From IMG/VR virus record IMGVR_UViG_3300030098_002080, positions 1-34,150 of that record: DNA of 34,150 nt, one strand, 5' to 3'. A program made the position numbers and the translations under genes. The notes beneath the pieces are model-generated. The model saw only the letters and a program-made list of their open reading frames with translations, made no database searches and was not told the DNA's origin. Shown here piece by piece: positions 5,795 to 34,150 of the stretch (within the stretch, counting starts at the first letter, position 1; the number at the start of each line of letters is the position of its first letter). The DNA is from a virus.

Positions 5795-6409
5795 ATGGCT
5801 ATCTATTTTTTTTTCAATGAAGTTGAGCAGATTGTAAAGATTGGCTACACCGAGCAAAGACTCAAGGACCGCGTTAGCCAGCTACGCACTGCCGCGCCCA
5901 ATTGTCGTCCTCTGGGTAACCCAATACCAGGTAGCCGCGAAACCGAAAAGCAATTGCACCAACGATTTGCCAAGTACCGCATCAACCGTGAATGGTTCCG
6001 TTATACAGGTGAGTTAAAGACATACATTGCGCATGTGCTAAATCAGTCACGTGACGCTGAACCGGAGTGGTTCAAGGCCATCATTGAAAACCATCACAAA
6101 GCCGTCAATCACGGCAATCCTGAAATGAGTACCTTTTCAATGATTGACGCGCTCAACCAGCACCGCGAAAGCGATGTACTCAACAACTGGGAACAAAACT
6201 TTGTAGCGGATATATATGATCGTTTTTTTCTGCCATTTGCTAGCGAGAACAACGATCTTTTACGGCCCGTTAGTGGGCCATCATTGAAGCAGTTAGACCG
6301 GCTGTGGACTATTTACATGGAGCGACTGAATGCCACTATCACTAGCAGAAAAGTACAGCCCGCCCGAGAGCGTGGAGACACCTCAAACCTTTTACAAGAA
6401 ACCGGCTGA
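5795..6409 (+). CDS. GIY-YIG superfamily protein, T5orf172 type
   Basis: The 204-residue product begins with a T5orf172/Mug113-type GIY-YIG domain (about residues 1-85). It has an initial IYFFFN strand, VKIGYTEQRLKDRVSQL, then a conserved Glu in ETEKQLHQRF and REWFRY. These match the family's usual order of motifs: an early aromatic strand, KIGxT, an Arg on the helix, ExxLH and EWF. The family is related to nucleases and is widespread in phages, often of unknown role. Residues 85-204 are helical with no recognised domain. AGGA lies just ahead of the ATG. The 3' end overlaps the next gene by 80 bases in another frame. Confidence 0.7.
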   Translation: MAIYFFFNEVEQIVKIGYTEQRLKDRVSQLRTAAPNCRPLGNPIPGSRETEKQLHQRFAKYRINREWFRYTGELKTYIAHVLNQSRDAEPEWFKAIIENHHKAVNHGNPEMSTFSMIDALNQHRESDVLNNWEQNFVADIYDRFFLPFASENNDLLRPVSGPSLKQLDRLWTIYMERLNATITSRKVQPARERGDTSNLLQETG

Positions 6410-6992
6410 CGAAGAGCAGCCAGCGCCAGGTATAACTTTTACAGTTGACCCTCCTAGCAATGACGTTGTTGCTGATAAGGTGGTGGAGGGCATACACAAG
6501 CGGATGCGTGATGAGGGCAGGCCTATCGCCAACATGGCTTTGCTGTGCCAATATGAGCCCGCCGCAGTCAAAGATGAGGCAAAAAAGCTGACGCGTGCTT
6601 TTGATAATTGCAAGGATTTGCATATTTTCCTTTTAACCCACGGCTACCTTGAAAACTTTAAAGAAGATGCTGCGAAAAACCTGCCGATTTACGAGCTGCG
6701 CCATAAGTATCAAACGACCTACAGCATCATGTATTCACTAGCGCAGACACTTGATTGTAAATTTTCCGTTTGCAAATCCAAGTACGAATACCGTTTTAAA
6801 TTGCGTGAACAATATGGTGTGAAGTGTGTCAACAGCGAACCGCAAAATGCAATGCAGTCTAGCGAAATTGAGTCACGGCTGGAGCTTATAGAGTCACGGC
6901 TGGAGCTTATAGAGTCGCAGCTTCGAGTTAAAAACAATTTACTGATCAGCATTTGGAAAGAAGTCAGTACAGCCAACGACTTTGAGGAGTAA
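6330..6992 (+). CDS. Early hypothetical protein with C-terminal coiled coil
   Basis: The 220-residue product starts at ATG 6330, seven bases after GGAG, inside the end of the previous gene. Residues 1-40 are Pro-rich and probably disordered. Residues 45-160 are mixed helical with three Cys and no motif that I recognise. Residues 175-200 are a coiled coil built by a duplicated seven-residue unit, ESRLELI (bases 6870-6911). It may be an oligomerising partner of the replication genes that follow. The overlap with the T5orf172 gene supports cotranslation. The next in-frame ATG, near 6505, would drop the Pro-rich part. Confidence 0.6.
   Translation: MPLSLAEKYSPPESVETPQTFYKKPADEEQPAPGITFTVDPPSNDVVADKVVEGIHKRMRDEGRPIANMALLCQYEPAAVKDEAKKLTRAFDNCKDLHIFLLTHGYLENFKEDAAKNLPIYELRHKYQTTYSIMYSLAQTLDCKFSVCKSKYEYRFKLREQYGVKCVNSEPQNAMQSSEIESRLELIESRLELIESQLRVKNNLLISIWKEVSTANDFEE
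6870..6923 (+). repeat. 21-base tandem repeat coding for a coiled-coil heptad
   Basis: The unit at 6870-6890 is repeated exactly at 6891-6911, and a degenerate partial third copy follows to 6923. Each unit encodes seven residues, one heptad, so changes in copy number lengthen the coiled coil without breaking the frame. Confidence 0.85.
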
Positions 6993-6996
6993 GCAC

Positions 6997-7791
6997 ATGA
7001 GCAACCTAACGGACTGGGGCTTGCCCGATGATTATGTAAATCCCAACAAGATTGGTCCTTTCTTCAAACTTGATCCGGCCAACAAATTAGGAGTTCGTTT
7101 GCGGGTACTTGGCTCTTTTAAAGACCCAAGATTGGCAGTTCGTGGCTTTGAAGGTTGGTACTTCACCACAGATCATGTAACCGGCCAGGAAGTCAAAAGA
7201 CCGCACCGTGTACCCATGTCAAACAAAAATGAGTTGATTCGCGCAGGTCGTGAAGAAATCAAGCACTTCTGGGCGCTAGCAATCTACAACTACGCAATGG
7301 ATTGTGTGCAGTGCTGGCAGATTAACCAGTCTACCATTCAAACCAGGATCGAAGACTTGGTGCAGATACATGGTGCGCCTAGCACTTATGACTTGCAGGC
7401 CATCCGCACTGGCACTACCAAAACTGACACAAAGTACATCATTGAAAAAGTAGAACCGAAAGGCGATGAGCATTTGGCAGTAAATGCTTTAGAAGAGTCA
7501 ACAATTGACCTGAGACAGCTTTTTGTTGGCGGTGACATCATGACACCCCTTGAAGAACGAGCCAGTGACGGCGATTCTGAGCATCTTGAGCGTAGTGACC
7601 TGAAGCCTATCGAAAAGCTCCGTCTGGTCCGCAATCAAATTGAAGCGGCTCAGTCATTTGAGCAGCTCGACGAAGCGCTGATGTTAAAAGACACCTACGT
7701 CGAGCGCGGTGACATCTCCAAGGCCGAACAGATGACGCTCAAGAGTATTGAAGCCAAGGTCAAGGAGCGCCTGTCTGACGAAGTGGCTTAG
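6997..7791 (+). CDS. Probable phage single-stranded DNA-binding protein
   Basis: The ATG at 6997 has GAGGAG at 6984-6989 and gives 264 residues; a TTG at 6982 in the same frame lies ahead of that site and is not used. Residues 10-145 resemble phage ssDNA-binding proteins of the gp32/gp2.5-like kind. Visible are a basic early stretch (KRPHRVPM), then KHFWALAIYNY, a strand-helix IQTRIEDLV and a pattern YDLQAIRTGTTKTDTKYI. The C-terminal half is acidic and helical, as in proteins whose tail recruits partners. It precedes the initiator gene by three bases, which fits a replication operon. The family call is from memory of pattern, not from an alignment. Confidence 0.6.
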   Translation: MSNLTDWGLPDDYVNPNKIGPFFKLDPANKLGVRLRVLGSFKDPRLAVRGFEGWYFTTDHVTGQEVKRPHRVPMSNKNELIRAGREEIKHFWALAIYNYAMDCVQCWQINQSTIQTRIEDLVQIHGAPSTYDLQAIRTGTTKTDTKYIIEKVEPKGDEHLAVNALEESTIDLRQLFVGGDIMTPLEERASDGDSEHLERSDLKPIEKLRLVRNQIEAAQSFEQLDEALMLKDTYVERGDISKAEQMTLKSIEAKVKERLSDEVA

Positions 7792-7793
7792 TC

Positions 7794-8720
7794 ATGAACA
7801 ACTACACCAAGGTCAGTAACCAGGTGCTGGAAGACGCAACGCTTTCCTTGAAAGCCAAAGGGCTCTTTGCCTATCTTGTCAAGCTACCCAAAGGCTGGAA
7901 GATCCGCATTGGCGAAATAGCAAAACACCATCGGGATGGCTATGACAGTGTACACAGTGCATTGAATGAATTGCTGGCTGCTGGTTACTTGCAGCGCTTT
8001 GGTCGTAGTCGTGACAAAGGTCAGGTCGGTGACTGGCAATACCACATAAATACTGGGTTGCAACCTGACAGGGAAAAACCTGTTCAGGAAAATCCGCATC
8101 AGGTTCAGCCTGACAGGGAAAATCCAGTTCAGGTTAATTTGCCGCAAGCCCAGATAGAATCAACAATTGAGCCTGACAGGGAAAATCCAGTTCAGGTTTC
8201 ACCTGACAGGGGAAAACCTGACCAGGGAAAACCTGACCAGGAAAATCCCGATGTATATATAAAAGACTTAGAAAGAAAAGACTTAATAAAAGAAAAAGTA
8301 AAAAAAGAAAAATTAGAAAAAGGGAAAGTCGCAGATGGATTACCTGATTGGGTACCCAAACAAGACTGGTACGATTTTGTAAAACAACGCAAAGCCATGC
8401 GGAACGCACCTTGGACACCAGGTTCAGCTTCTAGAAATTTAGGAGTGCTGAAATCTATTGCTGCAGAGTATGGGGTAGAACACGCAATATTTTGCCTGAA
8501 TGAAACCATACGGCAGTCTTGGCGTGGCATACCGAGGATAGAACCTAAATCAGCAACACAACGCTTCCAGAGTGCTGATGAAAAGAGCCAAGCCGTTTTA
8601 GACAATTTCTTGAAGGAGGACACCAATGGCAAGCAGGGAAACCATAGCCCGCTCACTGAAGAGCTGGGCAGCAAACACTGGGCGGACGATTACCAGCGAC
8701 CAAGCCGCAGAGTGGTTTGA
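7794..8720 (+). CDS. Replication initiator, lambda O-like, winged-helix
   Basis: The 308-residue product has an N-terminal winged-helix domain (about 1-85) with LSLKAKGLFAYLVKLPKGW and IGEIAKHHRDGYDSVHSALN, as in phage replisome organisers. A middle segment (90-155) repeats PDRENPVQ-type units, encoded by the iterons of the likely origin. A Lys/Glu-rich linker and a C-terminal domain follow (about 180-250; WYDFVKQRKAMRNAPWTPGS, then RQSWRGI), which is shared by such proteins and probably contacts the loader. As with lambda O, initiator and origin occupy the same DNA. The 3' end overlaps the helicase-loader gene by 95 bases. It should open the origin and recruit the host helicase through the next product. 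Confidence 0.75.
   Translation: MNNYTKVSNQVLEDATLSLKAKGLFAYLVKLPKGWKIRIGEIAKHHRDGYDSVHSALNELLAAGYLQRFGRSRDKGQVGDWQYHINTGLQPDREKPVQENPHQVQPDRENPVQVNLPQAQIESTIEPDRENPVQVSPDRGKPDQGKPDQENPDVYIKDLERKDLIKEKVKKEKLEKGKVADGLPDWVPKQDWYDFVKQRKAMRNAPWTPGSASRNLGVLKSIAAEYGVEHAIFCLNETIRQSWRGIPRIEPKSATQRFQSADEKSQAVLDNFLKEDTNGKQGNHSPLTEELGSKHWADDYQRPSRRVV
8064..8330. other. ori: Probable replication origin: iterons plus AT-rich stretch
   Basis: Seven small dyads CCTG-N1/2-CAGG (or CCAG variants) occur in 178 bases: CCTGACAGG at 8064, 8109, 8172 and 8202, CCTGTTCAGG at 8079 and CCTGACCAGG at 8217 and 8232. Each is followed by a GGAAAA-like run, and the last three are exactly 15 bases apart. Immediately downstream, 8251-8322 is very AT-rich and almost all purine on the plus strand. 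Iterons next to an AT-rich unwinding region inside the initiator gene is the plan of lambda ori. No binding data are available. Confidence 0.7.
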
Positions 8721-9012
8721 AGCCTTCCAGACTGTCAGTGACGAAGACTTTGAGCGGGCGCAACGCCAGTTACTTTACAGCACAGAAGACCGCTATCTGC
8801 CCACACAAGGGCAAATCTGGAAAGTGTTGCGAACACAGCCCGCCGCAACGTCACCAGCAGCACAGAAGCTGGACAAGGAGAAAGTCACCACACTTGGGCG
8901 CAAGTACCTGCCCAAGTTGATTGAGCTGGCAAGACGCAACGGACAAAATGGAATCAGCAACCTACGTCTTTCAAGTTCCCCCACAGACTGCGCCGCGCAT
9001 GACGCGCCGTGA
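8626..9012 (+). CDS. Helicase-loader-like replication protein
   Basis: The 128-residue product has a strong ribosome binding site (AAGGAGG) just before the ATG and lies directly after the initiator, like lambda P after O. Residues 20-70 (DQAAEWFEAFQTVSDEDFE, then LLYSTEDRYLPTQGQIWKVL) match the helical N-terminal pattern of G39P-type helicase loaders: a short helix bundle ending in a Pro-x2-x-(E/Q)-I motif. The C-terminal third is Ala/Arg-rich and probably unstructured. It would deliver host DnaB to the origin. It overlaps both neighbours in other frames. The loader role is inference from position and a short pattern. Confidence 0.6.
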   Translation: MASRETIARSLKSWAANTGRTITSDQAAEWFEAFQTVSDEDFERAQRQLLYSTEDRYLPTQGQIWKVLRTQPAATSPAAQKLDKEKVTTLGRKYLPKLIELARRNGQNGISNLRLSSSPTDCAAHDAP

Positions 9013-9358
9013 CCGTTGGAAGAAGCGCCCTTGTGTGGTTCGTTACTTCGAATACCGTGACCAACTCCGCGCAAAAGCCATAGAGTATGGCATTACGCTC
9101 CCGAATAACTTCACCGTCACGTTCTACATGGCTATGCCAAAGTCTTGGAGCAAAAAGAAGAAAGCCGCGCATGTCGGCAAGCCTTGCCAGTCCAAACCTG
9201 ACCTAGACAACGTGCTGAAGGGCTTTATGGATGCGCTGCGGACTAACGACGCTAGCGTTTACGCCGTGAGCGCTTCGAAGTTTTGGAGCGAGCAGCCTGG
9301 CGTCGTGCTAAGCGTTCGCGTGCCCGCTCCCGTTTGGCCGCCAAACTGGGCGGTATGA
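8948..9358 (+). CDS. rusA: RusA-family Holliday junction resolvase
   Basis: From ATG 8948 the product is 136 residues, the usual RusA size. The motif KPDLDNVLKGFMDAL at about residues 89-103 carries the two acidic residues that bind magnesium in RusA. A further Asp follows in TNDASVY, and an early strand TVTFYMAMP precedes a Lys-rich turn, all as in the family. The enzyme cuts four-way DNA junctions and would resolve recombination or replication intermediates before packaging. A TTG at 8921 in the same frame would add nine residues but has no better binding site. The last 107 bases overlap an opposing gene. Confidence 0.9.
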   Translation: MESATYVFQVPPQTAPRMTRRDRWKKRPCVVRYFEYRDQLRAKAIEYGITLPNNFTVTFYMAMPKSWSKKKKAAHVGKPCQSKPDLDNVLKGFMDALRTNDASVYAVSASKFWSEQPGVVLSVRVPAPVWPPNWAV

Positions 9359-10008: not shown

Positions 10009-10524
10009 ATGCCTAGACGAAGTGCAAGCAGCGCGCAGCCTACGACAATCCAGCCGATAGGCCAGAGCAAGATCAACGGCGATTTTATGCGCATCGCGAT
10101 GTCGAATGCGACGATTGCGGAAAAGGCCGCAATGATTGGCTGCCACAAGAACACGTACGACAAGGAGCGCAAGGCTAGGGCGGACCAGATCGCGTTACAG
10201 ACGCGGATTGAGTTAGACGAGAGCGTCCACCACGCGATGAGTACGCTGGTGGAGCTGTTGGATTGTGATGACCCGAATGCGCGCTACAAAGCCGCGAAGG
10301 ACATCTTGGACAGGGCTGGGTTCAAGCCGACAGACAAGCTAGAAGTGACGGCGGAAGTGAAGCGCACACCCAAGGAAATTGAAGCAGAGATCCGGCAGCG
10401 GATGGGTGATGAGATCGCGAGCCGGTTGTTGGGCGTAGACTTAAAGCCAGCGGCACCACCAGCGGATTTACCAGCAAAGGTAGTCGAAGCCGAAGATGCG
10501 GACTGGGAGAAAGTCGATGGCTGA
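10009..10524 (+). CDS. terS: Probable terminase small subunit
   Basis: The ATG at 10009 has GGAG at 9998-10001 and gives 171 residues; upstream starts of the same frame lack a binding site. Residues 15-55 form a HTH-like unit (KINGDFMRIAMSNATIAEK, then GCHKNTYDKERKARAD). The stretch DPNARYKAAKDILDRAGF at about residues 88-105 is typical of small terminase or related HTH proteins in tailed phages. The C terminus is acidic. It is the first gene of the late block and lies about 1.5 kb before the large subunit. It should recognise the packaging site and regulate the motor. The family is assigned by pattern and place. Confidence 0.65.
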   Translation: MPRRSASSAQPTTIQPIGQSKINGDFMRIAMSNATIAEKAAMIGCHKNTYDKERKARADQIALQTRIELDESVHHAMSTLVELLDCDDPNARYKAAKDILDRAGFKPTDKLEVTAEVKRTPKEIEAEIRQRMGDEIASRLLGVDLKPAAPPADLPAKVVEAEDADWEKVDG

Positions 10525-14882: not shown

Positions 14883-15730
14883 AAAAACCAAAAGTCATTA
14901 AGGACATCCAAAAAGAAGCGGATAAGCAGTTGAAGGGCGCACAGAAAGCGGCAGAAACTGAATTAACCGGCTTGACCGAATCCTTGAAGACTGAGCTGAC
15001 AGGTGCAGGAAAAACGCTTGGCATGAACACCGAGCAAGATTTTAGCGAGGTAGATTTGGGTCCAGTCCAAGACATTGCAGAAGCGGCCATTGAAATAACA
15101 AAATTGCCTGTGCAGGCAGTGGAAGACCTGACAAAGATTGATGTTCCCAAGGTCATTGGTGATGTTACAAGTGAAGCGGTCAGTGGCTCCATCCGACTAG
15201 CCCAGGACGCAATACAGGCGGCAAGTCCTATTTTGTCTTCTGCGGTAAAGGTTGCAGAACAACCATTCAAAGCGGTAGAAGACGTTTCAAAAATAGACGC
15301 ACAAAAAGTTGCGCAGGATGTTTTGACTGGTTCCGCAAACCTAGTAACCGAAACACCTAAAAACCTAGTCACCGTTGCAGAAGAAGCGGTCTTGAAGCCT
15401 GCCAGTGATCTGTCAATGTATTTGACAGAAGAAGCCAAAAAAGGTGCTGAACTAGCTTTCAATAATTTAATCAGCCCTTTCCAACCAGGTGAAACCGAAG
15501 GCACCGGCAGTGGTCAGGCCACAGGTGGCGACAACCTAGGATCTGCACCAACAATGGGCGACCCAGGTGTAATACCTGAAATGGAGCAAGCAACCACAAA
15601 GGCTAATCAGATGACCGAAGAAGAAAGGCTGCGCCGCATCCGCCGCCTGTTATTGAACCGCTATGGCCGTGAAGACACAATTCTTTCTGGCGCAGGTGAC
15701 ACGCGCAGCCGTCGAAGGTATGCGCTATGA
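14867..15730 (+). CDS. Helical structural protein with internal repeat
   Basis: The 287-residue product has GGAG ahead of ATG 14867 and overlaps the previous gene by 16 bases. Residues 1-205 form Ala/Val/Lys/Glu-rich amphipathic helices. QAVEDLTKIDVPKVIGDV (from about 84) is echoed by KAVEDVSKIDAQKVAQDV (from about 137), an internal duplication. Residues 206-245 are a Gly/Thr/Pro-rich linker. The tail RRLLLNRYGREDTILSGA is a pattern seen near the end of small head proteins of many podoviruses and siphoviruses. It precedes the portal gene with a four-base overlap. A virion component is likely, exact role unknown. Confidence 0.55.
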   Translation: MGGKVEKPKVIKDIQKEADKQLKGAQKAAETELTGLTESLKTELTGAGKTLGMNTEQDFSEVDLGPVQDIAEAAIEITKLPVQAVEDLTKIDVPKVIGDVTSEAVSGSIRLAQDAIQAASPILSSAVKVAEQPFKAVEDVSKIDAQKVAQDVLTGSANLVTETPKNLVTVAEEAVLKPASDLSMYLTEEAKKGAELAFNNLISPFQPGETEGTGSGQATGGDNLGSAPTMGDPGVIPEMEQATTKANQMTEEERLRRIRRLLLNRYGREDTILSGAGDTRSRRRYAL

Positions 15731-17379
15731 GTGATGCTGCAACGCTAGTCCAAGAATACGAAGCGCTCAAAAGCGAGCGGGGCAACTGGGAAAATATGTG
15801 GCAGGACATTGCCGAGTTGATGATTCCTAGAAGAGCAGATTTTACGAACCGTTACCGCGCACCTGGGGAGCAACGGCGTGACCGGATCTACGAGTCTACA
15901 GCGGTACGTGCCTTGGTTCGTGGTGCTAGTGGTCTACACAACACATTGACCAGTTCGACGGTGCCTTGGTTTGCACTTGAAACCGAAGACCGCGAACTGA
16001 TGCAGAACCGTCAGGTGCAGCTCTGGTTGGAAGACGCGACCAGGCGCTGCAACTCCGTCTTCAATGCGCCTAGGTCGATGTTCCACCAGTCGGCACACGA
16101 ATACTACCTGGACCTGCTAGCTTTCGGCACAGGCTGCATGTACGTCACCCAAGAGCCTGGCATGGGGCCGGTTTTCAAGTCGTACTTCTTGGGCCACACC
16201 TACATCGCCGAAGGCAAAACCGGCATGATTGATAGCGTCTACCGGCGCTTCGATGACACCGCTAGAAGCTTATATAAGCAGTTTGGCAACAAGCTCCCAG
16301 ATGAAATTATCAAAGCTGCAGACAAAGAGCCGTTTAGACGCTTTGAGCTATTGCACATTGTCAGACCTAGAAGCAACGCACCAGGTAGAACTGCAAAGCA
16401 GAAGCCTTTCTTGAGCGTCTATGTGCATGCAGAAAGCCGCAAGGTCGTGCAAGAAGGTGGCTTTGATGAGATGCCGTACATCGTGTCCAGATGGCAGAAA
16501 AACAGTATGGAAGTCTATGGGCGTGGCCCTGGGATCGAAGCGCTGCCCGATGTACGGATGGTCAATGAAATGGAGCGCGTTGGCCTGATTGCGCTGCAGT
16601 TGCTGGTTTCGCCACCGCTCTTAGTGCCGGACGACGGATTTTTGGCACCCGTAAGGACATCGCCAGGAAGTCTGAACTACTACCGAGCGGGTCTAGGACC
16701 ACAAGACCGCATAGCACCGCTACAAACTGGCGGCAGAGTCGATTTGAACGAAGCCAAAATAGGTCAAGTCCGCGCAGCCATAGAACGTACATTTTATTTA
16801 GACTTGCTGGAACTACCTGGACCTACGGCTGCAGACGGTGATGTCCTGCGCTTCAGTGCTACCGAAATCGCCGCCAGGCAGCGAGACAGGCTAAACATCT
16901 TAGGGCCGATAGTCGCTAGGCAGGAAGCCGAGTTTCTAGGGCCACTGGTGATCCGCACGCTTTCGGTGATGCTGCGTTCACAGATGCTACCACCACCGCC
17001 ACAGGTGCTATTGGATGCCGACTTCAAGGTGGCTTACAGCAATCCGGTAGCGATTGCTCAACGTGCAGGCGAGTTGGCTTCGATCAGTCAGTTGATCCAG
17101 TTCCTGGTGCCGTTTGCGCAGTTGGACCCAACGGTCATCCAACGTTTCCAGACTTCCAGGGTGGCGGAGTTGGCTGCAGAGATCCTGAAGGTGAGTCCAA
17201 GCGTGTTTAAGTCTACAGATGAAATGATGCAAGAACAGCAAGCCGAAGCAGCACAGGCCGCAGCACAGCAGGAGTTGGTACAAGCAAACGCCATTGCGGA
17301 ACAACAAAACTTAATTTCGATGAGCCGCAGAAACGAAAGCGTCGCTACACTGAATGAAGCAAGGGCACAGAGCGCATGA
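15727..17379 (+). CDS. Portal (head-tail connector) protein, T7-like
   Basis: The 550-residue product matches the podovirus head-tail connector family. Its start, with ERGNWENMWQDIAELMIPRR and then GLHNTLTSSTVPWFAL, is typical, followed by LLAFGTGCMYV, FGRGPG-like YGRGPGIEALPDVRMVN and TATEI-like FSATEIAARQRDR. The last 60 residues are a Gln/Ala-rich helix. Twelve copies form the ring through which DNA is packed and ejected. It follows the terminase region and precedes the scaffold and capsid genes, the normal podovirus order. The start ATG overlaps the previous stop by four bases. Confidence 0.95.
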   Translation: MSDAATLVQEYEALKSERGNWENMWQDIAELMIPRRADFTNRYRAPGEQRRDRIYESTAVRALVRGASGLHNTLTSSTVPWFALETEDRELMQNRQVQLWLEDATRRCNSVFNAPRSMFHQSAHEYYLDLLAFGTGCMYVTQEPGMGPVFKSYFLGHTYIAEGKTGMIDSVYRRFDDTARSLYKQFGNKLPDEIIKAADKEPFRRFELLHIVRPRSNAPGRTAKQKPFLSVYVHAESRKVVQEGGFDEMPYIVSRWQKNSMEVYGRGPGIEALPDVRMVNEMERVGLIALQLLVSPPLLVPDDGFLAPVRTSPGSLNYYRAGLGPQDRIAPLQTGGRVDLNEAKIGQVRAAIERTFYLDLLELPGPTAADGDVLRFSATEIAARQRDRLNILGPIVARQEAEFLGPLVIRTLSVMLRSQMLPPPPQVLLDADFKVAYSNPVAIAQRAGELASISQLIQFLVPFAQLDPTVIQRFQTSRVAELAAEILKVSPSVFKSTDEMMQEQQAEAAQAAAQQELVQANAIAEQQNLISMSRRNESVATLNEARAQSA

Positions 17380-33769: not shown

Positions 33770-34150
33770 ATGTCATATATTGGCAGCGTACCAACGCCAG
33801 CAGGCACGGAAACACGTCAAGAATTTACGGCTACCGCATCACAGACTACTTTCGCAACTTCTGGGTATGTAACTGGTAATTTCATTTCAGTCTACTTGAA
33901 CGGCGTACGTCTCAGTAGTGGTACTGATTTCAGTGCTACTAACGGGACCGATGTTGTCCTGACAACAGGAGCAGCGGCAGGTGATTTACTAGCAGTGGAA
34001 ATGCGCAACTCATTAGCAGACATTGGGGCAGGTTTTGCCAGTCGTGCAGAAGTCACTGGGACTAACACTACCGGAACAATTTCTAGTGGGTCTAACAGCC
34101 TGACGGTTGCGTCAGCAACAGGCATCAACGTTGGTGATTTTGTTGTTGAT
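33770..34150 (+). CDS. Tail fibre / receptor-binding protein, 5' part (continues at base 1)
   Basis: The frame opens at ATG 33770 and is still open at the window end; joined through the 98-base repeat it runs to 568, giving 282 residues. The N terminus (SYIGSVPTPAGTETRQEFTA, then TASQTTFATSGYVTGNFISV and YLNGVRLSSGTDFSATNG) is a short beta domain frequent at the start of phage fibre proteins and related to T7-type fibre N domains. A Gly/Ser/Thr-rich shaft follows. The gene comes after two fibre accessory genes. No strong ribosome binding site is seen, so it may depend on translation from the gene just before it. Confidence 0.8.
   Translation, partial: MSYIGSVPTPAGTETRQEFTATASQTTFATSGYVTGNFISVYLNGVRLSSGTDFSATNGTDVVLTTGAAAGDLLAVEMRNSLADIGAGFASRAEVTGTNTTGTISSGSNSLTVASATGINVGDFVVD
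34051..34148. repeat. Terminal direct repeat, right copy
   Basis: The 98 bases equal bases 1-98; the last two bases of the window then differ by one mismatch (34149 a against g at 99). The left copy continues into open coding sequence, so the right copy is most simply the overlap of a circular assembly. Confidence 0.95.

Follow-up and report, generated by a model that had tools for sequence, protein, structure and literature searches.

A probable phage replication origin built of 15-bp iterons inside the gene for its own initiator

In the virus record IMGVR_UViG_3300030098_002080 (IMG/VR), the gene for a predicted replication initiator contains a series of evenly spaced short dyads followed by an AT-rich stretch. 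The whole stretch of DNA analysed, 34,150 nt long, is referred to below as the window. The locus raises the question of whether these repeats constitute an origin of replication embedded in the initiator gene, as originally predicted, whether they exist for the sake of the repetitive protein linker that they encode, or whether they are bound by the initiator for some purpose other than initiation.

The initiator gene and its surroundings

The window, recorded as a virus, carries genes for an integrase, a repressor, a terminase and a head-tail connector. The genes and gene segments relevant here are the following:

6982–7791, plus strand: SSB-like gene immediately 5′ of the initiator (phrog_1607, single strand DNA binding protein; weak, E 0.018)
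7794–8720, plus strand: replication initiator gene (308 aa), encoding a winged helix, the iteron-encoded linker and a helical C-terminal part
7941–7982, plus strand: codons of the recognition helix (residues 50–63, from the modelled secondary structure), in the HTH region that changes and covaries with the iterons
7989–8048, plus strand: codons of the wing (residues 66–85, from the modelled strands), with the strongest covariation with the iteron core
8626–9012, plus strand: 128-aa ORF overlapping the 3′ end of the initiator gene (only a sub-cutoff match to Pfam TcpQ, E 0.064)
8921–9358, plus strand: RusA-like Holliday junction resolvase (PF05866, 2.7e-16; phrog_140, 3.1e-26)

The initiator is firmly matched by PHROG initiator families (phrog_4707, replication initiation protein, 2.4e-21; phrog_678, O-like, 8.9e-13, covering most of the protein), whereas its score against Pfam HTH_36 (PF13730), 15.3 bits, falls below the gathering cut-off of 25. 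This sub-threshold match was the only one in the Pfam scan, which found no RepA_N domain (PF06970) in the protein. In the AlphaFold model, the N-terminal winged helix is well predicted, with helices at residues 9–13, 19–30, 39–46 and 50–63 and strands at 66–69 and 82–85; the linker (residues ~90–146) is disordered and the C-terminal part is helical, with mixed confidence. A fold search with this model was set aside: its matches were all generic, MarR-like winged helices, and none of them reached E ≤ 0.001.

For the 128-aa ORF, PHROG and NCBIfam searches returned no family, and its structure model (pLDDT 44) is unusable for judging a role in helicase loading; calling it a helicase loader is only a guess. 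Profile searches of the neighbouring genes recognised no P-like helicase loader beside the initiator. Two genes 5′ of the SSB-like gene, at 5795–6409, the window encodes a protein with a T5orf172/MUG113 (GIY-YIG-like) nuclease domain. In phage ICP1, a protein that fuses T5orf172 and RepA_N domains acts as a nuclease directed at origins (PMC8263062); no RepA_N-type DNA-binding domain was seen in the T5orf172/MUG113 protein of the window. The genome is mosaic: its replication module is nearest to that of phages infecting Gram-positive and gut bacteria, unlike the head-tail connector (15727–17379), which is nearest to that of Pelagibacter podoviruses (Skadi, 38.5%). A perfect 98-bp direct repeat at the two ends (positions 1–98 and 34051–34148, the right copy stopping 2 bp before the right end) suggests that the genome, of ~34.05 kb, is circular or has redundant termini, or else that assembly broke off at a repeated tail-fibre motif.

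The iteron arrays and the adjoining AT-rich block

The repeats and the block that follows them are arranged as follows:

8064–8133, plus strand: iteron array 1, five 15-bp CC-N6-GG-N5 units starting at 8064, 8079, 8094, 8109 and 8124
8134–8171, plus strand: inter-array spacer, with a 48-bp step from the last unit of array 1 to the first unit of array 2 that is also found in L007–L011
8172–8241, plus strand: iteron array 2, five 15-bp CC-N6-GG-N5 units starting at 8172, 8187, 8202, 8217 and 8232
8247–8256, plus strand: degenerate last unit, CCCGATGTAT, at the junction with the AT-rich block
8251–8327, plus strand: AT-rich, purine-rich, 15-bp-periodic block, the proposed DNA unwinding element (from composition, the lag-15 scan and the AT peak of the family)

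All seven of the CCTG-N-CAGG dyads reported in the original prediction were located between 8064 and 8241, but the repeat unit itself is a 15-bp iteron, CC-N6-GG-N5, present in ten copies; it stands out most clearly in the seven dyads, CCTG-N1/2-CAGG. The strict dyads read CCTGACAGG at 8064, 8109, 8172 and 8202, CCTGTTCAGG at 8079, and CCTGACCAGG at 8217 and 8232. The first units of the two arrays are 108 bp apart, and the N5 spacer is mostly A-rich; the GGAAAA spacer thought to be shared is present in most units, although not in all. The two-unit pattern CCN6GGNAAANCCN6GG has six matches in the arrays and one stray match at 10456, against 0.01 expected from dinucleotide shuffles. Pattern and lag-15 scans of the window revealed no second comparable array and no promoter-proximal copy of the unit, and only two segments exceed the threshold of the lag-15 repetition scan, namely, array 2 and the AT-rich block. 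The protein repeat noted in the linker as PDRENPVQ was recovered as PDRE(K/N)PVQ, with three occurrences. All ten units are read in one reading frame, and a repeat maintained at the protein level therefore had to be excluded.

The AT-rich, purine-rich stretch expected after the dyads is likewise borne out, with 76% AT and 76% purine at 8247–8330; the 70 nt from 8251 have the highest AT content of the entire window, and the block consists of five purine-rich 15-mers, each starting with TA. When 63 genes of the family were aligned at the last iteron, AT content within the array was equal to the gene average or slightly lower, exceeded that average by 0.25, 0.24, 0.20 and 0.10 in the successive 15-nt bins over 15–75 nt past the array, and returned to it beyond 75 nt. 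The AT-rich block of the family is itself periodic, with 47.8% identity at lag 15 versus about 30–42% at other lags except 30, and contains the frequent words TAAATAC and TACTAAT. In L227, L243, L003 and other relatives, many of them Bacillota phages, the region 15–75 nt past the last iteron carries TTAAATACTAA / CTACTAAATACTAAT words spaced by 15 bp, which might form an ordered series of sites where the initiator binds single-stranded DNA. GC skew agrees only weakly with an origin at the array: there is a broad trough at about 4–10 kb, and the detrended minimum, at 9211, lies near the shift anticipated at 8.2 kb, but the signal is weak, its range being attained in 34 of 1000 block shuffles.

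Conservation of the repeats and covariation with the winged helix

Relatives of the initiator were gathered from IMG/VR, genome contigs, and phage and plasmid records, yielding 146 non-redundant genes. Across these genes, the linker DNA is 45%, 40% and 36% identical to itself at lags of 15, 30 and 45, respectively, compared to about 26–32% at other lags, and the lag-15 peak is absent from their wHTH and C-terminal DNA. A 15-bp repeat stretch is present in 113 of the 146 genes, the other 33 having no array at the threshold used; some of the 113 contain AT-rich repeats and not clean iterons. A clean CC-N6-GG array is found in only 67. The consensus unit of the family is AAAwCC-N6-GGA. Initiators of this family are also encoded beside tra genes on conjugative plasmids of Legionella (L088, L089 and L090), where the CC-N6-GG units of the linker are degenerate.

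When the synonymous codons of the window linker were resampled from those of its own gene, the observed count of pairs spaced by 15 bp was reached in only 16 of 5000 draws; under the same null, 38 relatives have 60 observed pairs, whereas the draws average 13.3 and never exceed 27. The unit is read as E-N/K-P-x-x in 62 of the 67 clean arrays and in another frame, as G-K-S/T-x-x, in five; in a second gene set, 26 arrays use the usual frame and four another one. Nine of the 97 clean arrays in the two sets are accordingly read in another frame (GKTxx, not ENPxx), indicating that the DNA rather than the protein is conserved. Furthermore, the halves of N6 are complementary far more often than halves combined from different genes: for each of the three pairs, and in both gene sets, none of 2000 such shuffles attained the observed dyad symmetry.

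The closest relatives, which come from assembled metagenomic contigs (L008–L010), provide a natural swap. Between L008 and L010, DNA identity is 97% in the first part of the wHTH, drops to 65% across the HTH region and to 51% in array 2, and rises again to 90% in the region of the AT-rich block and 97% in the C-terminal part. Compared with the window, L008 is 76% identical in the HTH region and 81–90% in array 1, whereas its C-terminal part and the region of its AT-rich block are 62% and 66% identical, respectively. Hence, the helix and the iterons travel together, independently of the remaining gene. Some units do not follow the helix, as units 3 and 5 of array 1 retain their CAGG right halves in the swapped type represented by L009 and L010. 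Close relatives that have the initiator without the dyads had been named in advance as evidence against an origin. Such relatives literally occur, in L009 and L010, and yet support the model, because both keep the architecture with different dyads in it, and their recognition helix has changed as well. The CCTG/CAGG letters are not constant across the family.

Across 97 genes, distances between iteron cores correlate with those of the recognition helix (Mantel r=0.156) and of the wing (r=0.222), both exceeding all 300 permutations and both persisting after controlling for alignment columns 1–36; for the N-terminal helix region, the correlation in the same 97 genes (r=0.058) is inside the permutation range. 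The correlations are small, yet located where the winged helix touches DNA. The wing residues in columns 68 and 76 of the wHTH alignment, corresponding to residues 70 and 78 of the window initiator, correlate with the base adjoining CC/GG. A rule for wing column 76 (F/W/Y/M with CCG..CGG; L/V/I with A/T) held in 54 of 57 genes of the discovery set and in 19 of 27 fresh genes, and given this fall of the best residue rule, no recognition code is claimed. The rule for column 68 (Q with G; R/K/G with A/T) held in 21 of 26 fresh genes, and all 10 fresh genes with a Q-class residue at this column had CCG..CGG; the rules for both columns are leads and not results. The wHTH tree is too poorly resolved for a pair test of the residue rules to be usable.

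Known intragenic origins and the reading of the locus

The closest known system is Rep of the Lactococcus phage TP901-1 rather than lambda O, with which the locus had originally been compared. The winged helix of TP901-1 Rep is homologous to that of the window initiator (43.8% over residues 2–96, 95 residues, E 3e-15), and its rep linker contains 15-bp CC-N6-GG repeats followed by an AT-rich stretch, as in the window. The gene order ssb-rep-orf14-rus of TP901-1 resembles that of the window, where rep and RusA are firm and the SSB assignment is weak, as noted above. The differences are that TP901-1 has two CCAGATGTGG copies 15 bp apart, whereas the window has two arrays totalling ten iterons, whose cores read CCTGAC(C)AGG, and that the C-terminal parts of the two initiators have no likeness by BLAST. 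Ostergaard and colleagues reportedly found in 2001 that the TP901-1 repeats are needed for replication. In lambda, the origin lies inside the O gene and comprises four iterons of ~18–19 bp, longer than 15 bp. As an analogy, the comparison with lambda is fair, given that in both cases repeats in the linker codons of the initiator are followed by an AT- and purine-rich stretch, and that the initiator matches the O-like phrog_678; however, with ten 15-bp units instead of four longer iterons, the window segment would work like ori-lambda but is not ori-lambda.

Staphylococcus phage phiJB and related S. aureus phages have an initiator of the same wHTH family, composed of HTH_36 and a phage C-terminal domain, and in phiJB a deposited rep_origin annotation inside the initiator gene overlaps a 15-bp periodic stretch. 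The phiJB iterons are degenerate and TCGG-like, and a DnaC-like loader adjoins the gene, whereas no loader was identified in the window. The alignment scan led by phiJB matched mainly near-identical S. aureus phages. The rep gene of pUSA03, considered as an experimentally based HTH_36 hybrid replicon, is 15-bp periodic in its AT-rich part; the stretch read has no clear CC-N6-GG array, and pUSA03 is therefore not counted as support. The RepA_N plasmid pSK41 has Rep boxes inside rep, and the linker residues encoded there are dispensable (PMC5703833); by contrast, no RepA_N domain was found in the window initiator. In the phage satellite PLE, the DNA-binding domain and the origin swap together and the C-terminus stays (PMC8263062), but the PLE iterons are ~30 bp long and intergenic. 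Hence, origins inside initiator genes (lambda O, pSK41-type plasmids, TP901-1 Rep) and the joint swapping of domain and origin (PLE) are already known. Newer are the 15-bp lattice shared across the family and the matching of helix and iterons as a cassette: in the open-access subset of the literature, we found no description of such a lattice including the unwinding element, or of such a cassette in this phage initiator family.

Two other explanations have to be weighed. The repeats might serve the protein, as a flexible Pro-rich linker expanded by repeat slippage, with the DNA having no role of its own. Such a linker would be expected to have all its units in a single frame, as they are in the window, slippage can spread tandem repeats, and the ENPxx type of linker is common to most relatives. 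Nevertheless, this explanation appears very improbable, considering that the codons used are more repetitive than the protein sequence demands, that the identical DNA unit occurs in another frame in nine of the 97 genes, that the N6 cores are palindromic and vary in step with the recognition helix and the wing, though not with the N-terminal helix, and that the AT-rich block lies at a fixed distance past the iterons.

Alternatively, the initiator could bind the repeats for control (autoregulation, copy number or superinfection exclusion), with replication starting elsewhere. The iterons of plasmid initiators often function in control as well as in initiation, and binding, which the covariation supports, is no proof of initiation. 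Against control as the sole function, the window has neither a second array nor a promoter-proximal unit, and its most AT-rich 70 nt abut the array, a pairing that is family-wide. Given, in addition, the deposited rep_origin of phiJB and the intragenic ori of pSK41 at the same place (PMC5703833), we regard control without initiation as very improbable.

By contrast, we consider it highly probable that the segment is a phage replication origin inside the initiator gene, with iterons bound by the winged helix of the same gene and an AT-rich block that melts. This origin reading, which is the best-supported one for the location originally proposed, builds on the homology of the initiator and the TP901-1-like gene order, on the 15-bp repeats of TP901-1 rep and the deposited rep_origin of phiJB, on the sole array in the window, the 15-bp DNA conservation in the family and the dyad symmetry of N6, and on the covariation of helix and wing with the iterons and the position of the AT-rich block right after them. 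It is well supported, not proven; from these comparisons we infer binding, melting and the start of replication here. The winged-helix N-terminus of the initiator would bind the ten CC-N6-GG iterons in its own gene, probably as symmetric units, one on each dyad. The resulting nucleoprotein array would strain the DNA, such that the neighbouring AT-rich block (8251–8327) melts, and helicase and primase would then be loaded at the melted block, aided by the C-terminal part and by host or phage loaders. The linker residues (PDRENPVQ...) would be mostly a by-product of the in-frame origin: with a 15-bp unit equal to five codons, the array can gain or lose units without a frameshift, and the linker probably tolerates whatever is encoded, given that the origin-encoded linker residues of pSK41 are dispensable (PMC5703833).

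A broader proposal, the case for which we judge to be evenly balanced, is that throughout the family the origin is a single lattice of 15-bp steps that extends from the iterons into the unwinding element, and that gene and origin together make up a self-matched specificity cassette. Each initiator gene would then encode a winged helix as well as the sites that it binds, and helix, wing and iterons would be altered or exchanged by recombination jointly. At the practical level, AAAwCC-N6-GGA iterons of 15 bp in the linker, with an AT-rich block 15–75 nt further on, provide a rule for likely origins that applies to many uncultured phages and plasmids without a known origin. The natural pairs of DNA-binding domain and site make specificity, incompatibility and the swapping of phage origins directly testable and, if the cassette reading is true, it would yield replicon compatibility types as well as a natural library for the protein–DNA recognition code.
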